Below, piece after piece: positions 20,781 through 63,680 of a stretch of 64,000 bases of DNA. The DNA is from Methyloversatilis sp. XJ19-49 (lineage in GTDB: Bacteria > Pseudomonadota > Gammaproteobacteria > Burkholderiales > Rhodocyclaceae): contig NZ_JANINI010000017.1 in NCBI RefSeq assembly GCF_024580145.1, positions 1-64,000 of the forward strand, written 5' to 3'. The position numbers and the translations under genes are program-made. The notes beneath the pieces were generated by a model. It was given only the letters and a program-made list of their open reading frames with translations, was not told the DNA's origin and did not search any database. The first letter of the stretch is position 1; every line of letters starts with the position of its first letter.

Positions 20781-23579
20781 ATGAAACGTCATCTCTGGTC
20801 ACTGATTGCATCGATCCTGTTTGCAGGCGCACTGGCAACTTCGACGGCCTATGCTGCTGATGAGGCCAGTCGCTATTACGAAGACGCTCTGGTGCGCTAC
20901 GAGCGCAAGGATGATGCCGGCGCGATCATCCAGCTGAAAAATGCGCTGAAGGCCGATCCCGGCCTGCTGTCCGCACACATGCTGATGGGCCGGGCAGCCC
21001 TGCGCAAGGGAGACTTCGCGTCGGCCGAGGTCGCGCTGCGCGAAGCCCAGCGCAGGGGCGCATCGCGCGCCGAATACATCGTTCCGCTGGCGAATGTGCT
21101 GCTGGCGATCGGCCAGCAGAAGGAACTGCTCGAAACCCTGCAGCCTGCTGATCTTCCCCCCGGCATCCGGTACGAACTGCTGCTGCTGCGCGCCCGGGCC
21201 CATCAGGAAACGAGCCAGTACGCGCAGGCCATCGCAGTCATCAATGAAGCGCGCGCGCTCAATCCGAACGCGGCGGCCGCGCCGGCGTTGCATTCGCGCA
21301 TGGCACTGGAGGCCGGGCGCGCCGAAGAGGCTGCGGCGCTCGCCGAACAGGCGACCAACCTCGGACCTGCCGATACCGATGCCTGGGCGGCGCGTGCCGC
21401 CGTTGCTTACGCCTCCAGTCAGCTGCAGGTGGCGCTCGAGCACTACGACCGTGCGTTGAAGCTTGCCCCCGACAACCGCGAAGCGCTTCTCGGTCGAAGT
21501 TCCGTGTTGATGGATCTCGGGCGCATGCCGGAAGCCAAGATTTCGCTGCTCGCATTGTCAAAGGCGGACGTGAACGAGCCGCGTTCCGCCTATCTGCGCG
21601 CCGTGATCGCAGATCTCGAAGGCGATCGAGATGGTGCCAGGAAGCTGCTCGGCGAAGTGGTGGGCCTGATTGATCCGTTGCCGCGCAGCGCATTGACCAG
21701 CCGCTCGCACCTCGCGCTGATCGCCGGACTGGCCCATCAGAGCCTGGGCGGAGCGGTCAAGGCGAAAGAATATTTCGAACTGCATGTCCGGTTCTTCCCG
21801 GCGCAGCCTGCCGCACGCAAGCCGCTGGCTTCGTTGCAGATCGCCGGCGGCGATCCGGCGTCGGCCATCGTGACACTCGAGCCGCTGGTGCGCAGCGGCA
21901 CCCGCGACCCGGAAGTGCTGGTGTTGATGGCCAGTGCCTACGGCAAGCTCAAGCGGCATGAACGCTCGACCGAACTGCTCGAAGAAGCGGCGAAGCTTGG
22001 CAAGTCGTCCGAGGTCCAGACCTCGCTCGGCCTGAGTCTGCTCGGGTCCAGGCAGACACAGGAGGGCCTTGCGCAGCTGCGCGATGCGCTCAAGCAGGAC
22101 CCGGGGCAGAGCCGGGCCAGCATGGCGCTTGCACTGACGGCACTGCGCGAGCAGCAGCCGAAGCGCGCAGCCGAACTGATGGAGGCTGTGGTCAAGCGCG
22201 AACCCGACAATCTTGCCGCCTTCAATGTACTGGGCGTCGCACGCGCCGCGGCTGGCGAATTTGCGGCGGCACGCAAGGCCTACGAAATGGCGCTGTCGAA
22301 GGACAGGAATTTCGACAGCGTCAAACTCAACCTGGTGAAGCTCGATCTCGCCGAGGGCAGGCCGGCCGACGCACGACGGCGGCTCGATGCACTGCTCAAG
22401 GAAAAGCCCGACCACGCTGCCGCATTGTTCGAGCGGGCGCAGCTCGATGCGCGGGAGAAGCGCTTCGCCGAGTCGATACGCGGCCTGGAAACGCTGCGCG
22501 ACAAGCACCGCAAGCACGTTGACGGTCAGATCGCCCTGATAGAGATGTATGTCCAGACCGGTGCGCTGGACAAGGCGCTTGAAGTGGCCAAGGACAGCAG
22601 TCCGAGTCAGCCGGGTTATCTCGCGGTGCAGGCGGCGCTGGCGCGTGTGCAACTGGCGCGCGGCGACGGGGCCGGTGCCCGCGCAACCCTGACTTCGATG
22701 ACGCGGGTGGCGGATTTCGATGCGGTCGCCCAGTTCCGGATTGCTCGCCTCCAACTTTTGGCGGGCAATCCGTCCGGCGCCGCGTACAGCATCGAAAAGG
22801 CGCTGCAGGGAAATCCGGATTTCGTGCCGGCGAAGATCATGCAGGCTGAACTGCTGTTGGGAGAAGGGGCGCTGGACAAGGCGGATGCGCTCGCGCAGGC
22901 GCTGGTCCGGGGCGCGAATGCCCCGCCGGATGCCTTCAAACTGGCCGGCGACGTGGCGTTCGCGCGCCGCCAGTGGCCGGACGCCATCGGCCACTACGGA
23001 ACGGCGCTCGCGCGTGGCGCGGGCGTCGCAGTCGCCGGACGTCTGTACGAGGCGCACCGCCGGGCCGGCAACGCGGCGCAGGCGAAAGCGTCGGTCGAAT
23101 CGCTGGTGCGCGCCCGACCGCGTGACCTGGAGATGAAATTGCTGCTGTCGCAGGCGCAGACCGACGCCGGTCAGTTGCGCGAAGCGAAGCTGACGCTGGA
23201 AACCGTGCTGAAGGCGGGTGAATCGGCACCCGTGCTGAACAATCTGGCCAATCTTCAGTGGCAGCTCAAGGATCCCGTTGCGCAGCAGACCGCCGAGCGC
23301 GCATTCAAGCTTGCGCCGGGTGATCCCCTGATACTCGATACGCTGGGCTGGATTCTGGTGCAGAAGGCGCAGCTCGATGCCGGTCTGCGTCATCTGCGCG
23401 AAGCGCGCCTGCGTGATCCCGCGAATCCTGAAATCCGTTACCACCTCGCCTGGGCGCTGGCCAAATCGGGGCGCAAGGCGGAAGCACGCCAGGAACTGGA
23501 AGCTGCGCTGCAGTCCGGCCGTTCATTCCCGGAGATCGAAAACGCGCGCGCGCTCAGGACTGAACTGGGTGCCTCCTGA
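20781..23579 (+). CDS. prsT: PEP-CTERM-system TPR-repeat protein PrsT
   Basis: The 932-residue secreted protein has an N-terminal signal peptide (LIASILFAGALATSTAYA) and more than a dozen tetratricopeptide repeats, beginning YYEDALVRYERKDDAGAIIQ and ending with DTLGWILVQKAQLDAGLRHL. Length and repeat pattern match the TPR protein of exosortase/PEP-CTERM exopolysaccharide systems. The family is often called a lipoprotein, but I see no lipobox Cys here, so it is probably periplasmic or soluble. No exosortase gene is in the window. A PEP-CTERM gene follows directly. Confidence 0.88.
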   Translation: MKRHLWSLIASILFAGALATSTAYAADEASRYYEDALVRYERKDDAGAIIQLKNALKADPGLLSAHMLMGRAALRKGDFASAEVALREAQRRGASRAEYIVPLANVLLAIGQQKELLETLQPADLPPGIRYELLLLRARAHQETSQYAQAIAVINEARALNPNAAAAPALHSRMALEAGRAEEAAALAEQATNLGPADTDAWAARAAVAYASSQLQVALEHYDRALKLAPDNREALLGRSSVLMDLGRMPEAKISLLALSKADVNEPRSAYLRAVIADLEGDRDGARKLLGEVVGLIDPLPRSALTSRSHLALIAGLAHQSLGGAVKAKEYFELHVRFFPAQPAARKPLASLQIAGGDPASAIVTLEPLVRSGTRDPEVLVLMASAYGKLKRHERSTELLEEAAKLGKSSEVQTSLGLSLLGSRQTQEGLAQLRDALKQDPGQSRASMALALTALREQQPKRAAELMEAVVKREPDNLAAFNVLGVARAAAGEFAAARKAYEMALSKDRNFDSVKLNLVKLDLAEGRPADARRRLDALLKEKPDHAAALFERAQLDAREKRFAESIRGLETLRDKHRKHVDGQIALIEMYVQTGALDKALEVAKDSSPSQPGYLAVQAALARVQLARGDGAGARATLTSMTRVADFDAVAQFRIARLQLLAGNPSGAAYSIEKALQGNPDFVPAKIMQAELLLGEGALDKADALAQALVRGANAPPDAFKLAGDVAFARRQWPDAIGHYGTALARGAGVAVAGRLYEAHRRAGNAAQAKASVESLVRARPRDLEMKLLLSQAQTDAGQLREAKLTLETVLKAGESAPVLNNLANLQWQLKDPVAQQTAERAFKLAPGDPLILDTLGWILVQKAQLDAGLRHLREARLRDPANPEIRYHLAWALAKSGRKAEARQELEAALQSGRSFPEIENARALRTELGAS

Positions 23580-31727: not shown

Positions 31728-33119
31728 CTACATCACCGTCGAATGCGGCTGCAGAGGATGTTCCAGCGTGTCGGCGATCAGGCGCAGCGCATTGTCGCAG
31801 TCGTCGCGTGACATCGGCCCGCCGAGGCACACGCGCACCGCGTCCGGTGGTGTGCCGTCAGTGCTGAAGGCGGCGCTGGCGACCACGCCGACACCCTGCG
31901 CACGCAGGTAGGACGCAAACTCCACCATCGACCACTCCGACGACAGCGGCAGCCACAGGTGAAAGCCTTCCGTTTGCGCCCGCATCGCGTGGCGGCCCAG
32001 ATGACGTGCGGCCAGCGACTGGCGGAAAACGGATTCGCTTCGTATGGCGTCCAGCATCGCGTCGGCCGTGCCGTCGGTGATCCAGCGCGTGGCCAGCGCG
32101 TTGGTGACCGGCGAGCACATGACGGTGGTGGCGCGCAGCGCGCCGGCCAGTCGTTCCGCTTGGCGCGGGCCGGGTGCGTTCACGAAGGCCGAGCGGAGGC
32201 CGGCGCCGAAACACTTCGACAGGCCGGTGATGTAATAGGTGAGCGCCGGTGCCAGCGTGGCCAGCGGCGGCGGAGTGTCGCGCGGCAGCATGGCGTAGGC
32301 GTCGTCCTCGATGATGGGCACGGCGTAGCGCAGCGCAACGTCGGCCAGCGCCTCGCGCCGGGCACGTGTGATCGTCGCAGTGGTCGGGTTCAGCAATGTC
32401 GGGTTGCAGTACAGCGCACGCGGTTTCAGGGTCCGACACGCGTGTTCGAAGGCATCGGCGCTGGGGCCGTCGTCGTCCAGCGGCAGCGCGTGGAGTTGCA
32501 CACCGAGCTGGGCGGCGATGGCCTTGATGCCCGGATAGGTCAGCGACTCGACGCAGATCAGTTCGCCCGGTCGTGCCAGCAGCGACACCAGCGCGGTCAG
32601 CGCGGCGTGGATGCCCGGGCACACCAGCACCCGTTCGACCGCGCACAACGGCAGCCGGCGACGCAGCCACTGCACGCCGGCTGCGCGGTCGTCGCGCGTG
32701 CCACCGAAATCCTGGTAGCGCAGCAGGTCGTACCAGTCGGACTGCACCATCACCTGCGCCGCACTGTCGCGCAGGCGGGCAATCAGCGCCGGATCCTGCG
32801 GCTCAGGCGGCAGATTCATCGTCATTTCGGCGCCGCTGCCGCCGCGTAGCGTCAGGCCGGGCGTAGCCCCGCGCACGAAGGTTCCCATGCCGGCGCGCGA
32901 ATCGATCAGGCCGCGCTTGCGCGCCTCGGCATAGCCGCGCGCCACCGTCGTGTAGTTCAGTTCCAGGTAGTCGGCCAGTTCGCGCAGCGTGGGCAGACGG
33001 TCGCGCGCGGCCAGCCGGCCGCTGCGCACGTCTTCGGCGATCAGATCGGCAATCAGCAGATAGGCCGGCTTGTTGCTCGACCGGATGCGCTTGAGCCAGA
33101 TCTGCGAGGTCTTGTCCAT
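31728..33119 (-). CDS. MocR/GntR-type regulator with aminotransferase domain
   Basis: The 463-residue protein joins an N-terminal GntR winged helix (DRLPTLRELADYLELNYTTV, about residues 40-60) to a fold-type I aminotransferase domain with the PLP lysine in YYITGLSKCFGAGLRS. MocR proteins sense PLP or amino-type ligands and do not usually transaminate. Its ATG overlaps the stop of the hot-dog gene by one base (TGATG), so it is expressed with the Nit1C cluster and may control it. Confidence 0.88.
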   Translation of the reverse strand: MDKTSQIWLKRIRSSNKPAYLLIADLIAEDVRSGRLAARDRLPTLRELADYLELNYTTVARGYAEARKRGLIDSRAGMGTFVRGATPGLTLRGGSGAEMTMNLPPEPQDPALIARLRDSAAQVMVQSDWYDLLRYQDFGGTRDDRAAGVQWLRRRLPLCAVERVLVCPGIHAALTALVSLLARPGELICVESLTYPGIKAIAAQLGVQLHALPLDDDGPSADAFEHACRTLKPRALYCNPTLLNPTTATITRARREALADVALRYAVPIIEDDAYAMLPRDTPPPLATLAPALTYYITGLSKCFGAGLRSAFVNAPGPRQAERLAGALRATTVMCSPVTNALATRWITDGTADAMLDAIRSESVFRQSLAARHLGRHAMRAQTEGFHLWLPLSSEWSMVEFASYLRAQGVGVVASAAFSTDGTPPDAVRVCLGGPMSRDDCDNALRLIADTLEHPLQPHSTVM

Positions 33120-33979
33120 CAATCGGCCCTTCGGGAGAAGCGCTTGCGGGTGATCACGTCGGCGATGCAGAGGCCGTCGGCCCGGCGCACGATGCGGCAG
33201 CGATGATGAAAGCCGTCAGGCTCCGCTCCGGCATCCAGCAGTTCGACACGCACGGCTTCGCCCGGGTCGATGTTGCCGTGGAAGTACAGCGTGCGCTCGG
33301 CGGTGACCGCCGGGCGCAGGCCGTACCAGGCGAACTCGGCACGGTCGACCAGCGCCTGGAAGGTGGCGAAGTACAGGAAGCCGGCGCCGTTGAAATCGCT
33401 GTTCGGGCAGGGCGTGAAGTCGAAGCTGCGAATCATTTCACCCTCCAGCGCCGCGGTGCGGTGCGCCCGGCCGAGCGACTTCAGTTCGGCTGCGGCCGCC
33501 ATCAGCATGGCGTCGCCAGAGATCAGGTCTTCGTTGTCCGGCAGCATCCGCGCCTTCGCAACGCTGCGGTTGCCGCCACCCGGCGCGCGGCGCACCAGCG
33601 CCGACAGCAGCTCGAGGCGCGCCACGCGCCTGCTGCCCATGCGCACTGTCTGCGCGCTGTAATGCTGCGCGCGGCCATGCGGCACCAGCCGCGCCAGCAG
33701 CGCGAACGGTGCGTGTTCGGTCACCGCGTCGAGTTGCGCCTCGCGCAGCCGCACCGCGGTCAGCGCGGCATAGCTGCGGCAGCCGTCGATGTCGGCGAAA
33801 GCCGGTTCATCCTGCCCCTGCGCGCGCGCGATGGCCATCCAGTGCAGGTGGGCGCATTCCTTCAGCAGCCAGTTTTCCGACAGGCCGTACAGCGCCAGTT
33901 GCGGCATGCCGGTCTGATAATGCTGCAGCAAAGCCAATGTGGCGCGCGGCTGCAATTGGTTCGCGTCCTGCATCAGCAT
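33119..33979 (-). CDS. Hot-dog-fold, LnmK/Pnap_2097-like protein of the Nit1C cluster
   Basis: The 286-residue protein has paired segments suggestive of a double hot-dog fold (TEHAPFALLARLVPHGRAQH; FDFTPCPNSDFNGAGFLYFA; LYFHGNIDPGEAVRVELLD). The pattern NSDFNGAGFLYFATFQALVDRAE-type resembles the Pnap_2097/LnmK-N biosynthetic family, which acts on ACP/CoA thioesters. That family call is from memory, and function is inferred. GGAGGAGGCC precedes the ATG at 33979; the start overlaps nitH by 7 bp. Confidence 0.6.
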   Translation of the reverse strand: MLMQDANQLQPRATLALLQHYQTGMPQLALYGLSENWLLKECAHLHWMAIARAQGQDEPAFADIDGCRSYAALTAVRLREAQLDAVTEHAPFALLARLVPHGRAQHYSAQTVRMGSRRVARLELLSALVRRAPGGGNRSVAKARMLPDNEDLISGDAMLMAAAAELKSLGRAHRTAALEGEMIRSFDFTPCPNSDFNGAGFLYFATFQALVDRAEFAWYGLRPAVTAERTLYFHGNIDPGEAVRVELLDAGAEPDGFHHRCRIVRRADGLCIADVITRKRFSRRAD

Positions 33980-35247
33980 GTGACGGCCTCCTCCGGTTGA
34001 AGATGCCGGGGCGCGAAGTCGGTCACCTTCTCGGTCAGCCAGGCGGCATCGCGCGCCACGCCGGAAAAGCGGCCCGAGCCCCAGGTGTACAGCCAGGGCA
34101 GACCGAGGAAGTACAGGCCCGGTTGCTGTGTTACGCCGCGCGTGTGCACCGGATCGCCGCGGCCGTTGAATACCGGCGCGTCCAGCCAGCGGAAATCCGG
34201 GCTGAAGCCGATGCACCAGATGACGCTCGTGATGCCGCTCGACGACAGGTCGAGCGTCGTGCGCTCGGCCGCAGGCGCCCACACCGGTTCATAGACCGAC
34301 GGCGGCGGTGCGTCGATGCCGGCGCTGGCGATGTGCTTGTCGATCGCGGCATTGATGCCGTTGTAGATGCGGTCGGCGTGGTCGAGCGCGGCGCCCAGGC
34401 CCGGCTGGAACGCAAGTGTCGTACCGTCGAGATCCTGCAGCAGGCCGTACAGTTCCATGCCTTCGAGCGCGAAGCGGCGCAGGTCGATGTCGCGCCCGCC
34501 GTCGCGGCCGGTCACGTAGTGGTTGGTGTTGTCGCGCACGCCTTCGCGCAGCGGGTGCTCGGTGACCGGCATGTCGTAGTAATTCATGTCGGCCAGCCAG
34601 TCGACCACGTCGCGTCCGCGGTAGAAGCGCGCGCAGCGCGGCGCATCGCCCACCGCCAGATGCACCTTGCGCCCCGCCAGATGCAGATCTTCTGCAATCT
34701 GCGCGCCGGACTGCCCGGATCCGACCACCAGCACCTCGCCCTCGGGCAGCGCGGCCGCGCTGCGGTACTGCTCGGAATGCAGTTGCACGATGCCGGCTGG
34801 CAGACGCTCGGCCAGCCGCGGCACGATGGGCTGGTGATAGCCGCCGCTGGCCACCACGACCTGGTCGGCGGTCCATTCGCCGTCCGATGTGATCACGTCG
34901 AAACCACCCTGCGCGCGCGGGCTGACGCGGCGCACCGTCACGCCCTCGCGGATCGGCGGTGCGACCTTGCGGCGGAAGGCGGCCAGCCAGGCGTTGATTT
35001 CGTCCTTTTTCATGAAGCCGTGCGGGTCCGGACCGTCGTAAATATGACCGGGCAATGCGCACTGCCAGTTCGGCGTGACGAGGCAGAAGTTGTCCCAGCG
35101 CTGGGTGCGCCAGACATGCATCGCGCTGTGCTTTTCCAGCACCAGATGGTCGATGCCGGCCTGCTGCAGGCAGTGGCTCATCGACAGGCCGGCCTGGCCG
35201 CCGCCGACGATGATGACCGGCAGATGGGAAGGGGAGGATGGGGGCAT
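33973..35247 (-). CDS. nitH: NitH-type FAD-dependent oxidoreductase (MSMEG_0569 family)
   Basis: The 424-residue flavoprotein has the N-terminal FAD motif VIIVGGGQAGLSMS, a second dinucleotide site EVLVVGSGQSGAQIAEDL near residue 170, and the monooxygenase-like pattern of the MSMEG_0569 family (TPNWQCALPGHIYDG). It probably oxidises an intermediate of the pathway. The ATG at 35247 has a GGAG site; a GTG at 35268 overlaps the nitG stop (GTGA) and could be used instead. Confidence 0.85.
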   Translation of the reverse strand: MPPSSPSHLPVIIVGGGQAGLSMSHCLQQAGIDHLVLEKHSAMHVWRTQRWDNFCLVTPNWQCALPGHIYDGPDPHGFMKKDEINAWLAAFRRKVAPPIREGVTVRRVSPRAQGGFDVITSDGEWTADQVVVASGGYHQPIVPRLAERLPAGIVQLHSEQYRSAAALPEGEVLVVGSGQSGAQIAEDLHLAGRKVHLAVGDAPRCARFYRGRDVVDWLADMNYYDMPVTEHPLREGVRDNTNHYVTGRDGGRDIDLRRFALEGMELYGLLQDLDGTTLAFQPGLGAALDHADRIYNGINAAIDKHIASAGIDAPPPSVYEPVWAPAAERTTLDLSSSGITSVIWCIGFSPDFRWLDAPVFNGRGDPVHTRGVTQQPGLYFLGLPWLYTWGSGRFSGVARDAAWLTEKVTDFAPRHLQPEEAVTC

Positions 35248-35264
35248 GGCAGGGACTCCGTGGT

Positions 35265-35552
35265 TCACTCGTCGAAGGCGAGTACTTCGATCTGCGCATC
35301 GGGCTGCGTGGCCCAGCGCGCAGCGTGCTGCTCGATGTCGGCCAGTTGGTCCATCGCGGCCGAACAGGCGAATCCGTACTTCGCGCGGACCCGCTCGGAC
35401 GCGATGTGCAGCGCCTCGCGCACCGACGCCATGAATTCCGCCAGCGGGTAGCAGGTGCCCGGCGCGAAGTAGTCCTTGATCACCAGCGAGGGCGAATAGC
35501 AGCGGGTTTCGGTCTGGTCCGGCCAGCGGACCCGGAAGTGCATGGCGGGCAT
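35265..35552 (-). CDS. nitG: MSMEG_0570-type small protein (NitG)
   Basis: The 95-residue protein begins MPAMHFRVRWPDQTETRCYS and contains SPSLVIKDYFAPGTCYPLAE, the family pattern of the MSMEG_0570 nitrogen-starvation protein. The biochemical role is unknown. It starts 12 bp after the glycosyltransferase stop, and its own stop lies 17 bp before the nitH ATG, so it is embedded in the operon. Confidence 0.8.
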   Translation of the reverse strand: MPAMHFRVRWPDQTETRCYSPSLVIKDYFAPGTCYPLAEFMASVREALHIASERVRAKYGFACSAAMDQLADIEQHAARWATQPDAQIEVLAFDE

Positions 35553-35565
35553 GGTGCAGATCTCT

Positions 35566-36762
35566 CTATGTGGATGCAGGCGGATGCAGCGACGCCCGGT
35601 ACAGGTCGGCGTGACGCCGGGCGCTGGCCGGCCAGCTGAAGCGCCGGCATACCTCGGGCAGTTCGTAGCGCAACACCTCGGCGCGGCGCGGGTCGCAGGC
35701 GCGGCGCATGGCGCGGGCGATCGACTGGGCGTCCTGCGGGTCGGCCCAGCTGACGTCGGTGTCGCCCAGATATTCGGTGAAGGGCGCAATCGACGACACG
35801 ACGACCGGCGTGCCGCTGGCCAGCGCCTCGAGCACCACCAGGCCGAAGCCCTCACAGGTCGATGCCATGACGAGCACGTCGGCGAGGCGGAACAGCGCCG
35901 GCATGTCGGCATCGGCCAGCGTGCCGGCGATGACCACGTCGCGCGCGTAGCCCGCGGTCAGGCCGCTGTCGCGCAGGTCGGCCTGGAAGGCGCGCGCATA
36001 GCCGTCGTGGTCGAGCAGGCTGGCGCCGCCGGCGATCACCAGTTGCGCGCCCGGCAGATCGGCCTTGAGCAGCGCGAAGGCTTCGAGCACGCGCCGCGTG
36101 TTCTTGCGCTCCTCGACGCCGCCGACGGCGAGAAACACCGGGCCGCGCCCGGCGGCTTCGGTGATGCCCAGCCGATGCGCGAGGATGAGGTCGCCGTCGC
36201 CCGGCTGTGCCGAGTAGCGTTCGGCGTCGACGCCGTTGTTCACGCGCTGCGCGTCGATGCCGAAATCGTCGGCCAGCCGGTCGCGCCACAGATCGCTGAC
36301 GCACAGCACGGTGCGTGCGCACTGCACGCCACGCGCCTGCCAGGCGGCGAGCCGGCTGTCGTCGAACTCGTCGAGGTGGTGCACGGTGCGCACGAAGCCG
36401 TCGATCAGACCCTGATCTTCCAGTGCGGCCAGCGCGTTGGCGCTGATGCTGTCCTGCGCATGCAGGATGTCGAACGGCCGGGTCGCCAGACGCGGCGCGA
36501 GGTGGGCGACATACGCGCCGATGCGTTCGCTGACTATGTCGACCACGCCGCCGGCGGTGCCGGCCACCGGCACCGGTTCGAAGCTGCACGCCGGCGCGCG
36601 GAACAGGCGCTGCCCGGGTGCGGCCGGTGCGAACATCGTCACGTCGTGGCCGTCGCGCTGCAGCGCCTGCGCCAGCTCAAGCGTGTGCACCACGCCGCCT
36701 CGCGGATTGACCGAATGGGTCAGCAGCCCGATTTTCAGCCCCGCTTGCAGTGCATCAGCCAT
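35566..36762 (-). CDS. GT4-family glycosyltransferase (MSMEG_0565 type)
   Basis: The 398-residue GT-B enzyme begins MADALQAGLKIGLLTHSVNP, with the acceptor-domain GGVVHTLELAQALQRDGHDV and the donor-domain GGVEERKNTRRVLEAF and SSxxEGFGLVVLEALASGTP-type motif, here ASTCEGFGLVVLEALASG. It would transfer a nucleotide sugar to a cluster product. Its start overlaps the nitF stop by 8 bp. It is one of the genes that differ between Nit1C clusters. Confidence 0.88.
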   Translation of the reverse strand: MADALQAGLKIGLLTHSVNPRGGVVHTLELAQALQRDGHDVTMFAPAAPGQRLFRAPACSFEPVPVAGTAGGVVDIVSERIGAYVAHLAPRLATRPFDILHAQDSISANALAALEDQGLIDGFVRTVHHLDEFDDSRLAAWQARGVQCARTVLCVSDLWRDRLADDFGIDAQRVNNGVDAERYSAQPGDGDLILAHRLGITEAAGRGPVFLAVGGVEERKNTRRVLEAFALLKADLPGAQLVIAGGASLLDHDGYARAFQADLRDSGLTAGYARDVVIAGTLADADMPALFRLADVLVMASTCEGFGLVVLEALASGTPVVVSSIAPFTEYLGDTDVSWADPQDAQSIARAMRRACDPRRAEVLRYELPEVCRRFSWPASARRHADLYRASLHPPAST

Positions 36763-37768
36763 GCGCCGCCTCCACATCCGCATGTGCAGTCGTCGCCGCA
36801 AGAATGAAGGGCTGTTCAGCGACATTCCACAGCAGCGCGCGGTCGTGCTGCCGGATCAGCCACACCTCGGGCGATGCGGTGAGGTGGCCGATGCGCGCCG
36901 CGGCAATGTCGCGTTCGCCGAAGCGCGCGATGACGCGGTCGGCGTGGGCCGGGCGCACCGACAGCAGATAGCCGAAGCTGGGAAAGGACAGCAGCCAGCG
37001 CAGCAGCGGCACGCCGTCTGGGCGCGGCACCGCGTCAAGATCAATCGCCGCACCGACCTTCGAGCACTCGAGCAGCATCAGCGCAGTGCCGATCAGGCCG
37101 GCCATGCTGACGTCCTTGCCGGCGTCGCACAGGCCGGCTTCGGCCAGTTGCGGCAGCAATTCGATGTCGCCACGCAGGCGCTCGGCCGGTGCGCGGGTCG
37201 AGGCATTCCAGTACGGATAGGGTTCTTCGTACGCGCCGCGCAGGTCGACCGCCAGGATCAGGTCGTCGCCCGGCTGCGCATTGAAACTTGTGATCAGCCT
37301 TTTCGCGCGCCCGAGGATGGCGACCGCCAGCTGGCCGTGCGCCGCGCGGTGATTGCTGTGGCCGCCGACGATGGGCACACCGTAGCGCGCCGACGCCGCG
37401 GCCATGCCTTCGAGCACCGGCGACGAGGCGTCGGCGCCGTCGCTCCACAGCGCGTCGACCACCGCGATCGGCCGCCCGCCCATGGCGCAGATGTCGCTCA
37501 CATTAACCATGACGCCGCAGTAGCCGGCGAACCAGGGCATCCGTGACACGAACTGTTCGACCAGCCCTTCGATGGCGAACAGCAGCCAGCCCTCGCCCGA
37601 CGGGTCGGCGATGGCGGCACAGTCGTCGCCGATGGCCACGGCCTGAGCCATGTCCTGCATGCCACCGGGCAGTGCGCGGCCGAGAGCGTCCATCACGTCG
37701 CCGATGTCGCGCTTGTGCGCGAAGCCGGGGCTGCCGCGCAGCGCGTCGACGAGGGCGTGCAGATTCAC
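36755..37768 (-). CDS. nitF: AIR-synthase-like protein NitF (sll0787 family)
   Basis: The 337-residue protein resembles PurM/SelD-type ATP-using enzymes: VAIGDDCAAI, VMVNVSDICAMGGRPIAVVD and GGHSNHRAAHGQLAVAI. PurM-type enzymes activate a carbonyl with ATP, so NitF could activate an amide or related group. Translation starts at GTG 37768, overlapping the nitE stop (GTGA). Length matches the family. Confidence 0.85.
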   Translation of the reverse strand: MNLHALVDALRGSPGFAHKRDIGDVMDALGRALPGGMQDMAQAVAIGDDCAAIADPSGEGWLLFAIEGLVEQFVSRMPWFAGYCGVMVNVSDICAMGGRPIAVVDALWSDGADASSPVLEGMAAASARYGVPIVGGHSNHRAAHGQLAVAILGRAKRLITSFNAQPGDDLILAVDLRGAYEEPYPYWNASTRAPAERLRGDIELLPQLAEAGLCDAGKDVSMAGLIGTALMLLECSKVGAAIDLDAVPRPDGVPLLRWLLSFPSFGYLLSVRPAHADRVIARFGERDIAAARIGHLTASPEVWLIRQHDRALLWNVAEQPFILAATTAHADVEAAHG

Positions 37769-38355
37769 GCGGCGACTCCGCTGCGCGCCGCCGTCGAGCG
37801 CGTGACGAAGCCGCTGAACACGTCGAAACACGGCGGGTAGTGATCGAGTTCGGCCTGCATCAGCCAGTGCGCGCGGCCGTGCAGGGTTTCCGGCTGCAGC
37901 GGCTTCCAGTGCAGGCGGCGGAACAGCGGCAGGTTCTGCGCCTGCACGTGGGCGAGGAAGGTGTGGCAGCCGCGCGCATGCGCGCTGGTCACCGCGAGCC
38001 GGATCAGCGTCGCGCCCAGCTTGCCGTGGCTGCGGAATGCCGGCGCCACCGCGAGGCGCGAGCCCCACCACAGGCCGGGTTCGCCGCAGCGCCGGTCCTC
38101 GTGGATGCGCACCGTGCCGACCACCTGATCCGGCATGCCGCCGACCTGGGTCACCGCGACGATGAGCTGGGCGTACGCATCGATGGCGTCGATGTCGTCG
38201 CTGTCGAACACGCCCTGTTCCTCGCAGAACACCGCGCGCCGCAGGCGATGTGCTTCGCCGCGCTCCCACGCGCTGTCCGCCCACTTGATGCGGAATTCGC
38301 AGGGCGCGAAGTGCGCCGGCAGTTCGCAGTACCCGACCGGTTCAGCGTGCCGCAT
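37765..38355 (-). CDS. nitE: GNAT acetyltransferase NitE (MSMEG_0567 type)
   Basis: The 196-residue protein has the GNAT acetyl-CoA core (RLAVAPAFRSHGKLGATLIR, where the pyrophosphate loop is SHGKLG) after an N-terminal segment ahead of FCEEQGVFDSDDID. An N-acyltransferase is typical here in Nit1C clusters. Start 38355 is 13 bp inside nitD. Substrate is unknown. Confidence 0.85.
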   Translation of the reverse strand: MRHAEPVGYCELPAHFAPCEFRIKWADSAWERGEAHRLRRAVFCEEQGVFDSDDIDAIDAYAQLIVAVTQVGGMPDQVVGTVRIHEDRRCGEPGLWWGSRLAVAPAFRSHGKLGATLIRLAVTSAHARGCHTFLAHVQAQNLPLFRRLHWKPLQPETLHGRAHWLMQAELDHYPPCFDVFSGFVTRSTAARSGVAA

Positions 38356-39529
38356 GGTGAGTGTCCGGTTGGTGAGCGTCCTGCTTCTCGTACGACGACA
38401 AAGAGGAGCAGGCGCCGCACTTGCCGCAGCCGGCCTTGATGTCGGTGGAGCGCAGGCCGGCATCGGACAGCATCGCGCCCAGCGGTTCGAGAATGGACCG
38501 CATGAAGGCCGGGCTGGGCGCCGGGTGATCTTCCAGCGGCGTGCCGCTGATCGGCACGAAGGGCACGACGAAGGGATACACGCCCAGGCCGATCAGTTTC
38601 GCGCTGATGTCGAGGATGGCGTCCGTCGTGTCGCCCAGCCCGGCCAGGATGTAGGTGCTCACCTGGCCGCGGCCGAATACGGCGACCGCAGCTTCGAACG
38701 CCTCCATGTAGCGCTCCATGGACACGGCCGCCTTGCCCGGCATGATCTGTTCGCGCAGCGCCGGCGTGACCACTTCCAGGTGCATGCCCAGACTGTCGAT
38801 GCCGGCCGCCTTCATGCGGGCGAACCAGCGGTCATCGTCCGGCGGCTCGCACTGTGCCTGGATCGGCAGGTCGACCGCGGCGCGCACGGCAAAGGCGGAA
38901 TCGCACAGCACCTGCGCGCCGCGGTCCGGCGTGGCCGGCGTGCCGGTGGTCATGACCATGTGCTTCACGCCGTCGAGCAGCACCGCGGCGCGGGCGACTT
39001 CGGCCAGCTGTTCCGGGGTCTTGTGCGCAATGGTGCGACCGGCCGCCAGCGACTGGCCGATCGAGCAGAACTTGCACGACTTGCGCCGGCTTTCATACCG
39101 GATGCAGGTCTGCAGTACCGTGGTCGCCAGCACGTCGGCGCCGTGCAGCGTTGCGATGTGCGAGTAGGGCACGCCATCCAGTGTCTGCAGCGCGTAGAAG
39201 CGCGGCTGTTCAGGAAAGCGGATCTGCGCGATCGGAATGCTGCCGCGCCTCAACTGCACGCGGCCGTCGGCGTCCGGCGCTTCTGCGATGAACGGCGAGT
39301 TGAAGGCGGAGCCCGTATGCACCGGCACCATGATGGTCGTGCCGTCCACGGTCACCGCCTTGTGGTCCGACGGCCCGGCACCGCCGCGCCGGCTCGGTGC
39401 GCCGGCGCCCGGATCAGCCAGCCGCAAGCCGAACGACTGCAGTTCCGTCATCAGCGCCGTCGCCTGCTGACGGTCGGTCGAGTTGCGGTTCGATTCGCGG
39501 TTCGCTTCGAAAGTCGGTGGGGTGCTCAT
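38342..39529 (-). CDS. nitD: Radical SAM protein NitD (MSMEG_0568 family)
   Basis: The 395-residue protein has three clustered Cys at residues 142, 152 and 155 ([14 protein letters not shown]), a C-x9-C-x2-C pattern that departs from CxxxCxxC, then [20 protein letters not shown]. The tail adds a Cys-rich patch ([11 protein letters not shown]) that may hold a second cluster. It shares the rare spacing with other family members as I recall them. GGAGCACCTCC precedes ATG at 39529, which lies 116 bp inside nitC. Confidence 0.85.
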
Positions 39530-40493
39530 CGGAGGTGCTCCGGACAGGTTCTGAAGTGGATGCCATCGACACGACCGGACGTGCCGGGCGGTCGTTGATG
39601 GCGAGGCTGAGCAGTTCGGGCCGCGCGTAGTGGCCGACCGAATCCATCATGCGTTTGCGCTTGGTGACCAGCGCCATGTCCAGATCGGCGATCACCATGC
39701 CTTCGCCTTCGGTCAGTGGCGGCGCCAGATGCACGCCTTCGGGCGACACGATGGCGGTGCAGCATCCGCCGCGCAGCGCCTTCTGCAGGCCGGCGTCGGG
39801 CGTGATGGACTGGATCTGCGCGTCGCTCAGCCAGCCGGTGGAATTGATGACGAAGCAGCCCGCTTCGAGCGCGTGATGGCGGATCGTCACTTCCATCTGG
39901 TCGGCGAATATCTGGCCGACCATCGAACCGGGAAACTGCGCGCAGTGGATTTCCTCGTGCTGCGTCATCAGCGCGTAGCGCGCCAGCGGGTTGTAGTGCT
40001 CCCAGCAGGCCAGCGCGCCGACGCGACCGATGGCGGTGTCGACCACCTTCAGGCCGCTCGCGTCACCCTGACCCCACACCATGCGTTCGTGATAGGTCGG
40101 CGTGATCTTGCGGCGCTTCAGCGCCAGCGTGCCGTCGGCGTCGAACACCAGCTGCGTGTTGTACAGGCTGCCGTGGTCGCGCTCGTTCACGCCGAGTACC
40201 ACCACGACGCCGCGCGCTCGCGCCCGTTCGGCGACCGCCTGCGTCACCGGCCCGGGCACCACCACCGCCCGTTCGTACAGCTTCAGGTGCGCCGCGCCCA
40301 TCAGCACCGGCGGCTGCACGAAGGAGAAGTACGGGTAGTAGGGCAGGAAGGTTTCCGGGAACACCGCCAGCCGCGCGCCGCGGTCCGCCGCCTCGTCGAT
40401 CGCCGCCAGCACGCGCGCCAGCGTGCCGTCGGCCGATTCGAGGTCGGGCGCGATCTGGATCGCGGCGGCGCGGACGATGCGGGCGGAAGACAT
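39414..40493 (-). CDS. nitC: Nitrilase NitC (sll0784 family)
   Basis: The 359-residue protein is a carbon-nitrogen hydrolase with catalytic Glu47 ([12 protein letters not shown]), Lys129 ([13 protein letters not shown]) and Cys163 ([11 protein letters not shown]), the nitrilase triad. Family members hydrolyse nitriles such as 3-cyanoalanine, giving ammonia. Its ATG overlaps the nitB stop (TGATG). The last 38 or so codons run over the start of nitD in another frame. Confidence 0.92.
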
Positions 40494-40975
40494 CACAATG
40501 TCCAGGTGTCGAGGATGAAGGCGTTGTCCTTCCGGTGCAGCAGGATGATGTCGAGCACGTCGAGCGGGTTGATCGGCGTGATGCCTTCGATCAGCGACCC
40601 TTCACCATGGCCGTATAGCGCCTGCAGCGCGAAGCGGCACGCATAGACCTTGCCGCCTTCGGCGATGAACTTGGTGATCTGGTTGTTGAAGTTCTGGTGG
40701 CCGGGGAAGGCTTCATCGCCCAGCGTCGGGAAGCCGCGCTTGACGCCCAGCGTGACGCCCGGACCGTACAGCAGGATCGACGTGTCGAAGCCCTTGCGCT
40801 TCAGGCGGGTGGCCTGCAGCAGATTGACGAAGCCGATCGAGCCTTCGAAGGCGACGGTGTGGAAGGTGACCAGCGCCTTCTCGCCCGGCTCGGCTTTTAC
40901 GTCCTCGAACACCTTCTCTTCGTAATCGACGAGGAATTCACCTTTCTGATTGGCGGGCTTGGTAACTTTCGGCAT
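40493..40975 (-). CDS. nitB: NitB (MSMEG_0572/Sll0783 nitrogen-starvation protein)
   Basis: The 160-residue protein matches the Sll0783 family with [20 protein letters not shown] and [20 protein letters not shown], a DsrE-like fold. Its role is unknown, but it always leads the cluster. AGGAGAGTTCTC precedes the ATG, and a near-perfect sigma-54 promoter lies about 62 bp upstream. It is the first gene of the operon. Confidence 0.85.
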
Positions 40976-41036
40976 GAGAACTCTCCTGTGGGGTGGTCGA
41001 CCGGGTCAGTGCGCTCTGACGGCGCTCCCTGTCCTT

Positions 41037-41052
41037 TGCACGCTGCGTGCCA
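41037..41052 (-). promoter_or_regulatory. Sigma-54 promoter of the Nit1C cluster
   Basis: On the minus strand: TGGCAC-N5-GTGCA, perfect in the -24 element and 4 of 5 in the -12 element, with GG-N10-GC spacing. Transcription would start near 41026, giving a leader of about 51 bases before nitB. Known Nit1C clusters use a sigma-54-dependent activator (NitA), which fits. Confidence 0.78.
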
Positions 41053-41164
41053 TGCCGGCATCACCGTCTGCGATCAACATGCGATCAATGAACACACGCG
41101 CCCGTCGTGGCCGTTGACAGATTTTCACGGTCGCTGAAATGTCCTTTCCGGATCGGGGCTTAGG

Positions 41165-41180
41165 GGTGCCTTTACGCACC
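41165..41180. promoter_or_regulatory. Candidate upstream activator site
   Basis: GGTGC-N6-GCACC is a perfect inverted repeat about 140 bp upstream of the predicted sigma-54 start, the usual distance for an enhancer-binding protein. The binding factor is not in the window. Confidence 0.45.
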
Positions 41181-41221
41181 GCGATGGAGCATCCGCCATG
41201 CAATCAATGCACCCGATCATT

Positions 41222-61844: not shown

Positions 61845-63680
61845 TCATCCGGTGCTGTCTGCGGACCTGTGCAGGCAATCAGATTCAGTGATGCCGGTTT
61901 TCGCTGCTGTCGGGGATGCATCGGACGTCCCGGCATCGGCAAAAAGCAGTTCCCTGATTTGACCTCGTTCGGCAGCGGTGGGCCAAACGGCGTTTTCGAG
62001 CGTGGTGGCGTGTTTTTGCGCTGCGATGGCCGCGTGCGCCGGATCGATGCGTCCTTGCGCGTCGAAACCTACTAGGCTGTACGTCTCGTTGACGACGCTA
62101 TCCGGGGCATCGTCTTTCAGATTCACGTACCAGATGGCGAGACGCAAGGTCTGTCCCGCCATGGCATCAAGCTTCGCCTCGCCGCGCACCAGTGCAACGT
62201 ACAAGGCGTGGGGGACCGCATGGACACCCCTGCTTTCGTCGAGCAGGAAAACATAGGAAGCATGCGCAGCCTCGTCGGCTCCGGCAGTACCGGTGCAGGC
62301 CTGCACCGACCGGCCTGAAGCATCGGGCGAGCTGTACACCGGCGCAAAGCCACCACCCGGCGTGCGGAAGTTGGTGGTCTGTCCCTGGTACATCCGGGCC
62401 GCCACCCACTGTACTGCGCCGTTGTAAGCGTAGGCGCGAAGGTCGTACTTCATGGCCTTGGGGGCCCGCTGTGCCTCCGCCGCTCGCGGGTCGTCGATCA
62501 CCCGTTCCCCTGGCGCAACGATGGCCTGGGCTACGTATTCACCCGCCAGGATGTCATGCCAGACCCGCTTCGTCAGCTTGTCTCCCCGATAGGCCGCGCG
62601 GCCGCCGAAGCCGGCAACGGGTTTGAAGAACAGACTGCGGCGCGCGTCCCACAAGCGCTGCGCATCGCCGGCATCCACCACCTCGGTGTGCGGCACGTGC
62701 TCGAGCAGTATTTGCTGCGTGGCATGCGGTACGCCTAGGGCTTGCAGTCGCGCAGCGTCGCTGAACAGCGCGAGGAGCCGCTTGTCGGCGTACAGCGCAT
62801 GGGCCTGCGGGTGCGGTGTCAGCACCACGGCATGCTGCAGGTACGCTTCACGCAGTGCAGCGCTGCCCGGCTGCTCGAGGTAGAAATCGGTCAAGCGGTT
62901 ATAGACCAGATCAATGGCCAGGTCGCCGTGCCACAGCATGCCATCGCGCCATTCGAGCGCAGCCGGATCGGCGATTACCGTTCGCAGGCCATGGCGTTCG
63001 AACAATTGCTGGAACAACAGGAACTCGGGGTAGAGGTACTGATCCTGGGGTGCCACGTCGACGATGGCGATGCTGGCCAGTGCTTGCGTGCTTGCGGACA
63101 AGCAGCTCGTCTCATGCGCCAACGCCCACTCATGCCGGAACATGGCGACGATCTGCTGCTCGAAAAAAATGACGCTGGCCAGTGTCGGCACCATTGAATC
63201 GACTGCCGCGCAGCAGGCACGCTGCGCTCGTGCCAGCACGGCGTTGAGCATGGCCCCGCCAGCGTTGGTGTTGATTTCGATCAGTCCGAGATGCCCTTGG
63301 CTCAGATGGAAGTCATAGCCGAAGAAAGCACCTAGCGGCCCGCGCGCCCCCAGCCGTGCGATGGCTGGCGCCGCGCCCAGCACCTGCTCCCTGTAGGCCG
63401 GAAGCGCCACCACCGACTCAACGGCCTCCATCACCTGTGCCATTCGATGCAGCTGCGGCGTCGCAACGAATACGGGCAGGGCTGCGAAGAGAAACGGCGA
63501 GCGCTGCCGGACCATCTCGGCCAGCCCGGGCTGGCCCAGTTCCAGATCGAGGGCATGCGCCAGCGCCTTCCCGTCGAGGCTCAAGCAGAAGCAAGCACTG
63601 TTGAGCATGTCGACTGAGCTGCGGCGCGCCTCACGAGGGAGCTGTCGCAAGTTAGCGTTTTTGGTGTTGTCGGCGGTCAT
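61845..63680 (-). CDS. Large ATP-grasp-like protein of unknown function
   Basis: The 611-residue protein has ATP-grasp-type segments in the second half: LFFKPVAGFGGRAAYRGDKL (grasp lysine and glycine-rich loop), KYDLRAYAYNGAVQWVAARM and QTTNFRTPGGGFAPVY, and earlier GYDFHLSQGHLGLIEINTNA, which resembles the metal-binding end of the fold and suggests a circular permutation. This suggests a ligase of carboxylate-amine type. I do not recognise the family. ATG at 63680 has a weak ribosome site; ATG at 63608 is an alternative. Confidence 0.62.
   Translation of the reverse strand: MTADNTKNANLRQLPREARRSSVDMLNSACFCLSLDGKALAHALDLELGQPGLAEMVRQRSPFLFAALPVFVATPQLHRMAQVMEAVESVVALPAYREQVLGAAPAIARLGARGPLGAFFGYDFHLSQGHLGLIEINTNAGGAMLNAVLARAQRACCAAVDSMVPTLASVIFFEQQIVAMFRHEWALAHETSCLSASTQALASIAIVDVAPQDQYLYPEFLLFQQLFERHGLRTVIADPAALEWRDGMLWHGDLAIDLVYNRLTDFYLEQPGSAALREAYLQHAVVLTPHPQAHALYADKRLLALFSDAARLQALGVPHATQQILLEHVPHTEVVDAGDAQRLWDARRSLFFKPVAGFGGRAAYRGDKLTKRVWHDILAGEYVAQAIVAPGERVIDDPRAAEAQRAPKAMKYDLRAYAYNGAVQWVAARMYQGQTTNFRTPGGGFAPVYSSPDASGRSVQACTGTAGADEAAHASYVFLLDESRGVHAVPHALYVALVRGEAKLDAMAGQTLRLAIWYVNLKDDAPDSVVNETYSLVGFDAQGRIDPAHAAIAAQKHATTLENAVWPTAAERGQIRELLFADAGTSDASPTAAKTGITESDCLHRSADSTG

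Follow-up and report, generated by a model that had tools for sequence, protein, structure and literature searches.

A conserved sigma-54 element, and boxes of a probable MocR-type regulator, at the nit1C promoter of Methyloversatilis sp. XJ19-49

The nit1C operon and the region upstream of nitB

The window, by which we mean the whole stretch of 64,000 nucleotides of Methyloversatilis sp. XJ19-49 that was analysed (contig NZ_JANINI010000017.1), carries a nit1C operon for cyanide and nitrile assimilation on its minus strand, the genes of which were assigned with NCBIfam models. The stretch upstream of nitB is the control region of this operon. According to the available portions of two papers, cyanide assimilation is tied to the Nit1C cluster in Pseudomonas (PMC11049912, PMC6368324). 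A NitB scan of genome contigs placed Methyloversatilis records nearest to the NitB of the window among those with names. In the order of transcription, the genes are:

40493..40975, minus strand: nitB, MSMEG_0572/Sll0783 family (TIGR04044), the first gene of the operon, with its ATG at 40975
39414..40496 (start approximate), minus strand: nitC, Nit6803-family nitrilase (TIGR04048)
38342..39529 (start approximate), minus strand: nitD, MSMEG_0568 radical SAM protein (TIGR04043)
37765..38463 (start approximate), minus strand: nitE, N-acetyltransferase (TIGR04045)
36755..37816 (start approximate), minus strand: nitF, AIR-synthase-like protein (TIGR04049)
35566..36825 (start approximate), minus strand: MSMEG_0565 glycosyltransferase (TIGR04047)
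35265..35630 (start approximate), minus strand: nitG, MSMEG_0570 family (TIGR04042)
33973..35268 (start approximate), minus strand: nitH, flavin-dependent oxidoreductase (TIGR04046)
33119..33991 (start codon approximate), minus strand: Pnap_2097 family gene between nitH and mocR (TIGR04099, 277.3 bits against a cut-off of 125)
31728..33119, minus strand: MocR-type regulator of 463 aa, with a GntR winged helix-turn-helix and an aminotransferase I/II domain (PF00392 and PF00155)

Both domains of the MocR protein at the tail of the operon score over their cut-offs (PF00392, GntR, 40.6 bits; PF00155, Aminotran_1_2, 81.6 bits). The start of its gene overlaps the stop of the preceding Pnap_2097-family gene, so that mocR is probably co-transcribed with the operon and autoregulated. 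In the genome of the window, it is the one strong match to nit1C MocR proteins (568 bits), with the next at 60. The nearest NCBIfam model is that of EhuR (NF052286), which it matches with 386.3 bits, below the cut-off of 480.

Five features upstream of nitB are considered below. Neither of the two conserved TTGATYGCA pairs (41199-41220 and 41069-41088) figured in an earlier note on this DNA.

41037..41052, minus strand: predicted sigma-54 (-24/-12) promoter element, TGGCACGCAGCGTGCA, with a predicted start near 41026
41069..41088, minus strand: proximal TTGATYGCA pair, TTGATCGCATGTTGATCGCA, with an 11-bp period, at about -62 to -43; probable MocR operator
41165..41180, plus strand: GGTGC-N6-GCACC dyad, GGTGCCTTTACGCACC, not conserved as a dyad
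41175..41191, minus strand: NtrC-like site, TGCTCCATCGCGGTGCG, agreeing at 10 of 12 consensus positions, at about -165 to -149; moderate support
41199..41220, minus strand: distal TTGATYGCA pair, ATGATCGGGTGCATTGATTGCA, with a 13-bp period, at about -194 to -173; probable MocR operator

Two sets of loci were used for comparison. The named sample consists of the best 80 loci from one NitB scan of genome contigs, all of them named, and a set of 92 loci adds the window and 11 plasmid loci. NitB relatives are also encoded on plasmids, in 515 records of which 374 are from Klebsiella and 30 from Escherichia. One Klebsiella plasmid copy (L133, NZ_CP011596.1) has a MocR gene, a sigma-54 site and TTGATTGCA boxes, with an AMP-binding gene after nitH. 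On plasmid pTB101 of Aquabacterium olei, a ccoG gene lies downstream of nit1C (L134, 19992-21434); an orthologue of ccoG is also present in the mpaR region of Pseudomonas aeruginosa, as the available part of PMC10790758 describes.

The sigma-54 element, the TTGATYGCA boxes and MocR across nit1C loci

Positions 41052..41037 of the minus strand read TGGCAC-GCAGC-GTGCA with GG-N10-GC, and the element ends 62 positions before the nitB ATG. The letters and the spacing are those that the earlier note had given for a sigma-54 promoter. This is the single site in the window with one mismatch to TGGCACN5TTGCA. As sites with at most two mismatches are no more frequent than expected (19 found, 25.3 expected in the window), the sequence match alone is weak evidence. 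What makes the element convincing is that it is conserved at the same place in 70 of the best 80 named nit1C loci, where a counterpart had to have GG-N10-GC, to differ from TGGCACGNNNNTTGCA at no more than 4 of 12 positions and to lie between -130 and -35. Methylobacter L103 and nine cyanobacteria make up the ten named loci that lack it. When the window and the plasmid loci are included, the element is found in 76 of 92 loci; the 16 without it are the same ten, Rhodococcus L148 and the plasmid loci L144, L146, L147, L150 and L151. All 47 dereplicated loci with a box or a MocR gene have the element, compared with a mean of 5.7 in shuffled sequences (47 against 2.1 at up to three mismatches), although this test is not independent, as the set was drawn with knowledge of where sites occurred. 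In the window's own genome, TGGCACN6TGCW has 56 exact matches and the reversed control pattern 29, and there is one rpoN match (Sigma54_DBD, 221.7 bits). On this evidence, TGGCACGCAGCGTGCA is very probably a sigma-54 promoter.

Upstream of the element, an alignment of six upstream regions revealed an invariant block around TGATCGGGTGCATTGATYGCA together with proximal TTGAT-type boxes. The box TTGATYGCA has a strong strand bias. In 74 loci, a set without the cyanobacteria, seven of the 11 plasmid loci, L084 and L103, the 400 bp upstream of nitB contain 160 copies in the orientation of nitB and 11 in the opposite one, and the 400 bp with which nitB begins contain none. Of these 74 loci, 63 have one sense copy or more and 48 have two or more. 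After dereplication to 47 loci, 96 sense and 8 antisense boxes remain, with at least one sense copy in 38 loci and at least two in 30. The boxes are degenerate in alphaproteobacteria, and 16 of 71 loci with a linked MocR gene and a sigma-54 site fail the strict box rule.

Upstream of TGGCAC, exact boxes are frequent at distances of 25-26 and 36-37 bp and then recur from 119 bp onwards. Between 110 and 210 bp, the 28 dereplicated boxes keep in phase with the helix (R 0.66 at 10.5 bp, p ~5e-6), and the phasing is still seen when only their 19 distinct distances are counted (R 0.54, p 0.004). The exact proximal pair is unique in the 4.1-Mb genome, where one other place has it with one mismatch. 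The 13-bp pair pattern has two matches with one mismatch, one being the distal pair and the other lying in a reading frame; as judged from reading frames, the other pair matches in this genome apparently lie in coding sequence.

Patterns of other regulators were also counted upstream of the 75 non-cyanobacterial loci. IHF sites with at most one mismatch are not enriched (17 against 16.4 in shuffles), and neither are NifA or NorR patterns. The ANR-type pattern TTGATN4ATCAA occurs five times with at most one mismatch, against 1.8 in shuffles. Among the papers listed by a literature search for the letters of the box, none looked related. MocR operators are commonly direct repeats that lie one or more helix turns apart, as stated in the available text of PMC5320631, and the TTGATYGCA repeats and their phasing agree with putative operators of this kind.

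A MocR gene is linked to nit1C in 66 of the best 80 named loci (tblastn), in 61 of them divergent from nitB and in five downstream of the operon. The five are the Methyloversatilis-type named loci, which thus resemble the window. This relocation of mocR to the tail of the operon could make the regulator self-regulated. In annotated plasmid copies of nit1C, a PLP-dependent aminotransferase family protein adjoins nitB. The 14 named loci without a linked MocR gene are nine cyanobacteria, L084, L103 and three from Rhizobium. Each of the Rhizobium loci has at least one exact box and an unlinked MocR orthologue with 51% identity, the next full-length paralogue having at most 36%. L084 and L103 have no exact box, and the best MocR matches in their genomes reach 91 and 44 bits. 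Overall, the exact box is absent where there is no close MocR, as in the cyanobacteria, Rhodococcus L148, L084, L103 and L145.

The five plasmid loci L144, L146, L147, L150 and L151 have neither a sigma-54 site by our rule nor a TTGATYGCA box. Their MocR proteins are diverged, with 37-42% identity to three query proteins where those of sigma-54 loci have at least 44%, although looser identity labels put two of the five in the closer class. Four of these five loci have TTGTATG repeats. As they have no sigma-54 site, a MocR protein alone does not need sigma-54. The type of sigma factor that serves the nit1C operon seems to have been switched in these plasmid loci.

To place these proteins, we used a tree of 88 MocR rows. 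All 83 nit1C-associated rows, which comprise the linked proteins and the three unlinked ones from Rhizobium (L077, with a stop in its row, was dropped), are separated from five paralogue rows by a branch with support of 100/98; long branches were flagged at L144, L151 and the paralogues. Among the labelled rows, the absence of sigma-54 requires three changes. This makes more than one gain or loss of the element probable, although the long branches leave this unsure. At least 97% of the 88 aligned rows have K302, which, from its place in the aminotransferase domain, may be the lysine that binds PLP. Together, we consider it probable, with good confidence, that the MocR-type protein acts on the TTGATYGCA boxes, and we propose it as the regulator of the nit1C operon and of its own gene.

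A proposed mechanism and its alternatives

Sigma-54 polymerase requires an AAA+ ATPase, and AAA+ activators classically serve sigma-54 promoters. As MocR proteins have no AAA+ domain, sigma-54 needs another activator here. NtrC scored over the cut-off in all 14 nit1C genomes tested, but because NtrC is so common, its presence merely permits such a role. Among 16 of the 56 sigma-54-like matches in the window's own genome that were examined, three carry a TGCACYN5RGTGCA site, placed between -102 and -122 relative to TGGCAC. These three sites are exact at a porin gene and a nitrate-type transporter and have one mismatch at glnA (genes named by eye); upstream regions of P-II genes yielded no useful NtrC sites. 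The NtrC-like site of nit1C has two mismatches and lies at -139 from TGGCAC. The left arm of the dyad forms its right half.

Across loci, NtrC-like sites with at most two mismatches are found in 35 of the 75 non-cyanobacterial upstream regions, compared with 5.0 in shuffles. With up to three mismatches, they are scattered from about -240 to -130 from TGGCAC, and their place differs by lineage. An RGTGCR box follows the distal pair in 16 of the 22 dereplicated loci that have this pair. The left NtrC half is complete at nine of these 16 boxes, against 1 of 14 and 0 of 14 at two other RGTGCR boxes, by a half-site rule that was chosen after some of the sequences had been seen. Tistrella L149 has no NtrC-like site (five mismatches at best), the site is indistinct in several alphaproteobacteria, and the best one of Klebsiella L133 has three mismatches and lies at another distance. 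Support for NtrC stays moderate, because the rule was set post hoc and several lineages show no clear site. The GGTGCR repeats could belong to MocR instead, and the protein L002, described below, could replace NtrC as the sigma-54 partner of MocR. We slightly favour NtrC as the activator at the nit1C promoter.

In the mechanism that we propose, sigma-54 RNA polymerase would wait at TGGCACGCAGCGTGCA (41037-41052) while MocR holds the same-strand TTGATYGCA pairs, one just upstream of the polymerase and one about 120 bp further up and in phase with it. With PLP on K302, MocR would sense cyanide or an amine derived from a nitrile. The ATP-driven activator would be supplied in trans, most likely by NtrC at the adjacent degenerate site, so that NtrC would signal nitrogen shortage and MocR the substrate. 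Such a combination of a sigma-54 start, MocR on two box pairs and an activator in trans, with NtrC as the leading candidate, appears likely to us. The conservation of the element, the co-occurrence of boxes and MocR and the helical phasing are observed, and binding by MocR is what they suggest.

At sigma-54 promoters, IHF often occupies the DNA between enhancer and polymerase. MocR might bend or loop this DNA between NtrC by the distal pair and the polymerase, although we regard a bending role as speculative. Equally speculative is a fuller version, in which MocR is a substrate-gated bender that replaces IHF, nit1C is switched on solely under nitrogen shortage with cyanide or its adduct bound, and the same family runs the operon without a sigma-54 site in other lineages.

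MocR might instead be a repressor that sits on the boxes when cyanide is absent, blocks the contact between activator and polymerase and is freed by its ligand. This is a real possibility, if a less probable one. In P. pseudoalcaligenes, a MocR protein encoded upstream of the cio cluster is reported to repress it, with Nit4 and other cio proteins being constitutive in the mutant (PMC8567248, which cites unpublished work for this). EnuR, which belongs to the family that NCBIfam scores place closest to the MocR of the window, also acts as a repressor (PMC8739950). However, the boxes are clear of the -24/-12 element, with the proximal pair at about -62 to -43, unlike the operators of EnuR. Moreover, MpaR is needed for the cyanide-responsive ccoN4, and its putative site, 61-62 bp upstream of the start in the available portion of PMC10790758, is near the position of the proximal pair.

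A further alternative is that an unlinked enhancer-binding protein binds TTGATYGCA, with MocR a mere neighbour. The position of the distal boxes would suit an enhancer, and the window's own genome has 18 strong candidates. However, Fis-type activators usually bind dyads, whereas the boxes are repeats on the same strand. Boxes and close MocR orthologues also co-occur when unlinked, as in Rhizobium, and the diverged MocR proteins pair with another repeat, TTGTATG, in four of five loci. We consider this alternative improbable.

The earlier note had proposed that the operon is under nitrogen-status control by an enhancer-binding protein such as NitA, encoded outside the window, and had pointed to the dyad as a control site. 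The letters of this perfect dyad are present, starting about 190 bp from nitB; its distance above the sigma-54 element is about 112 bp and not about 140 bp. There are three such dyads in the window where 0.26 are expected, the two others, also perfect, being at 21887-21902 and 62292-62307. An intact dyad is found in only two of eight Methyloversatilis-type loci (the window and L128). These loci are not all independent, as L031 and L129 are apparently a single record. The dyad is broken in L024 and L025, where NitB is identical and the right arm reads CCACC. Among the 75 non-cyanobacterial upstream regions, the exact dyad occurs in 2 (0.2 in shuffles) and a dyad with at most one mismatch in 11 (2.4 in shuffles), a mild excess that we attribute to conserved GGTGC arms. 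The left arm, GGTGCG (41180-41175), is kept in all eight Methyloversatilis-type loci and is the only arm conserved in the genus; it fits the NtrC-like site better than the dyad. We therefore rejected the dyad as a conserved operator, and it is not supported as a control site of the nit operon.

In favour of a NitA-type protein, NitA of Pseudomonas is described as a sigma-54-dependent regulator encoded divergently from nitB (PMC11049912). On the Acinetobacter plasmid L145, a gene of this kind, for a PAS-type sigma-54 activator, is likewise divergent from nitB, and a sigma-54 site is present. A palindromic TATGAAATTTCATA between this gene and nitB is a possible NitA operator. Genes for enhancer-binding proteins near nit1C were found in 2 of 86 stretches, some of them short (L049 and L084), and no AAA+ activator gene was found in eight further stretches, some also short. 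The gene of L049 is several kb off, beside a MocR gene, and that of L084 is adjacent. The two loci in which an activator adjoins nitB, L145 and L084, have no TTGATYGCA boxes.

The genome of the window has 22 Sigma54_activat (PF00158) matches, 18 of them over 200 bits and none on the contig of the window. Ten of the 18 strong ones were scanned with NCBIfam and include NtrC (L004, 698.1 bits) and NifA (L001). To look for a NitA orthologue, the L145 and L084 proteins served as queries in place of Pseudomonas NitA itself. Against the 18 strong activators, the N-terminal 315 residues of the NitA-like L145 protein had two chance matches of 20-21 residues (E at least 0.33), and none was found with the first 250 residues of the L084 activator. 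The best match of both whole proteins is L002, with 50% identity over 307 residues to L145 and 47% over 352 residues to L084, covering the AAA+ and C-terminal part up to the L084 C-terminus. L002 has no Pfam domain before the AAA+ part, and its N-terminal 300 residues had no match in the 14 nit1C genomes, in a search without a positive control. An unlinked NitA-like partner such as L002 thus seems unlikely in this genome, and activation of the promoter through the dyad by a NitA-type protein from outside the window has little probability in our view.

Of the proposed nitrogen-status control, the link to sigma-54 and nitrogen holds up, through the conservation, the one rpoN match and, with moderate support, the NtrC-like site. 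The part assigned to NitA does not: the promoter has TTGATYGCA boxes, which go with a MocR gene that is in the window, and among the 18 strong activators of the genome, the N-terminal parts of the L145 and L084 proteins have no match beyond chance stretches. Finally, TGGCAC-N5-GTGCA could be part of a MocR operator rather than a promoter, as it is nearly palindromic (GCACG-CAG-CGTGC) in some betaproteobacteria, but this is very improbable, as GG-N10-GC is kept and the palindrome is not, and as the element is present without MocR beside an adjacent enhancer-binding protein (L145, L084). Overall, sigma-54 control is well supported, the dyad can be dismissed as the operator, a role of NitA is unlikely here, and the gene of the probable specific regulator lies in the window.

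Comparison with known systems

In the literature examined, the linked regulator of nit1C is NitA of Pseudomonas. Our comparison suggests that the majority of the proteobacterial copies sampled, 66 of the best 80 named loci (69 with the unlinked cases from Rhizobium), go with a PLP-based regulator at a sigma-54 promoter. We found no account of MocR at a sigma-54 or nit1C promoter, so that the combination of MocR and sigma-54 is without a precedent that we could find; subscription literature was largely beyond the search, and an account may exist in print. A conserved array for a regulator that is not an AAA+ protein offers a tractable case of a co-regulator at a sigma-54 promoter. The natural variants, with MocR in the presence or absence of sigma-54 or with an enhancer-binding protein in place of MocR, make the question directly testable.

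The system closest in gene content is nit1C/NitA of Pseudomonas pseudoalcaligenes (oleovorans) CECT 5344, which has the same operon genes and for which a regulator of sigma-54 type was proposed. Its linked regulator belongs to the Fis-family sigma-54 activators and is encoded divergently from nitB, whereas the window has a MocR-type protein at the operon tail. MpaR of Pseudomonas aeruginosa shares the MocR architecture, the cyanide context and a putative site 61-62 bp upstream of the start; its promoter is a predicted -35/-10 one and its site contains a short palindrome, ATCTGAT, in contrast to the sigma-54 element and the TTGATYGCA repeats found here. The ectoine regulators EhuR and EnuR provide the nearest NCBIfam model, which the MocR of the window matches below the cut-off, and the EnuR half-site ATTGT (available text of PMC8739950) resembles the TTGTATG repeats of four of the five diverged nit1C MocR loci. 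Unlike nit1C of the window, these regulators act at a sigma-70 promoter with overlapping operators and on ectoine genes. Within the same genome, the NtrC-type promoter of glnA (named by eye) shares the -24/-12 element and an upstream GGTGC-type dyad with nit1C. The NtrC-like site of nit1C is degenerate and 17 bp further up than the best site of glnA, and the MocR boxes are added.
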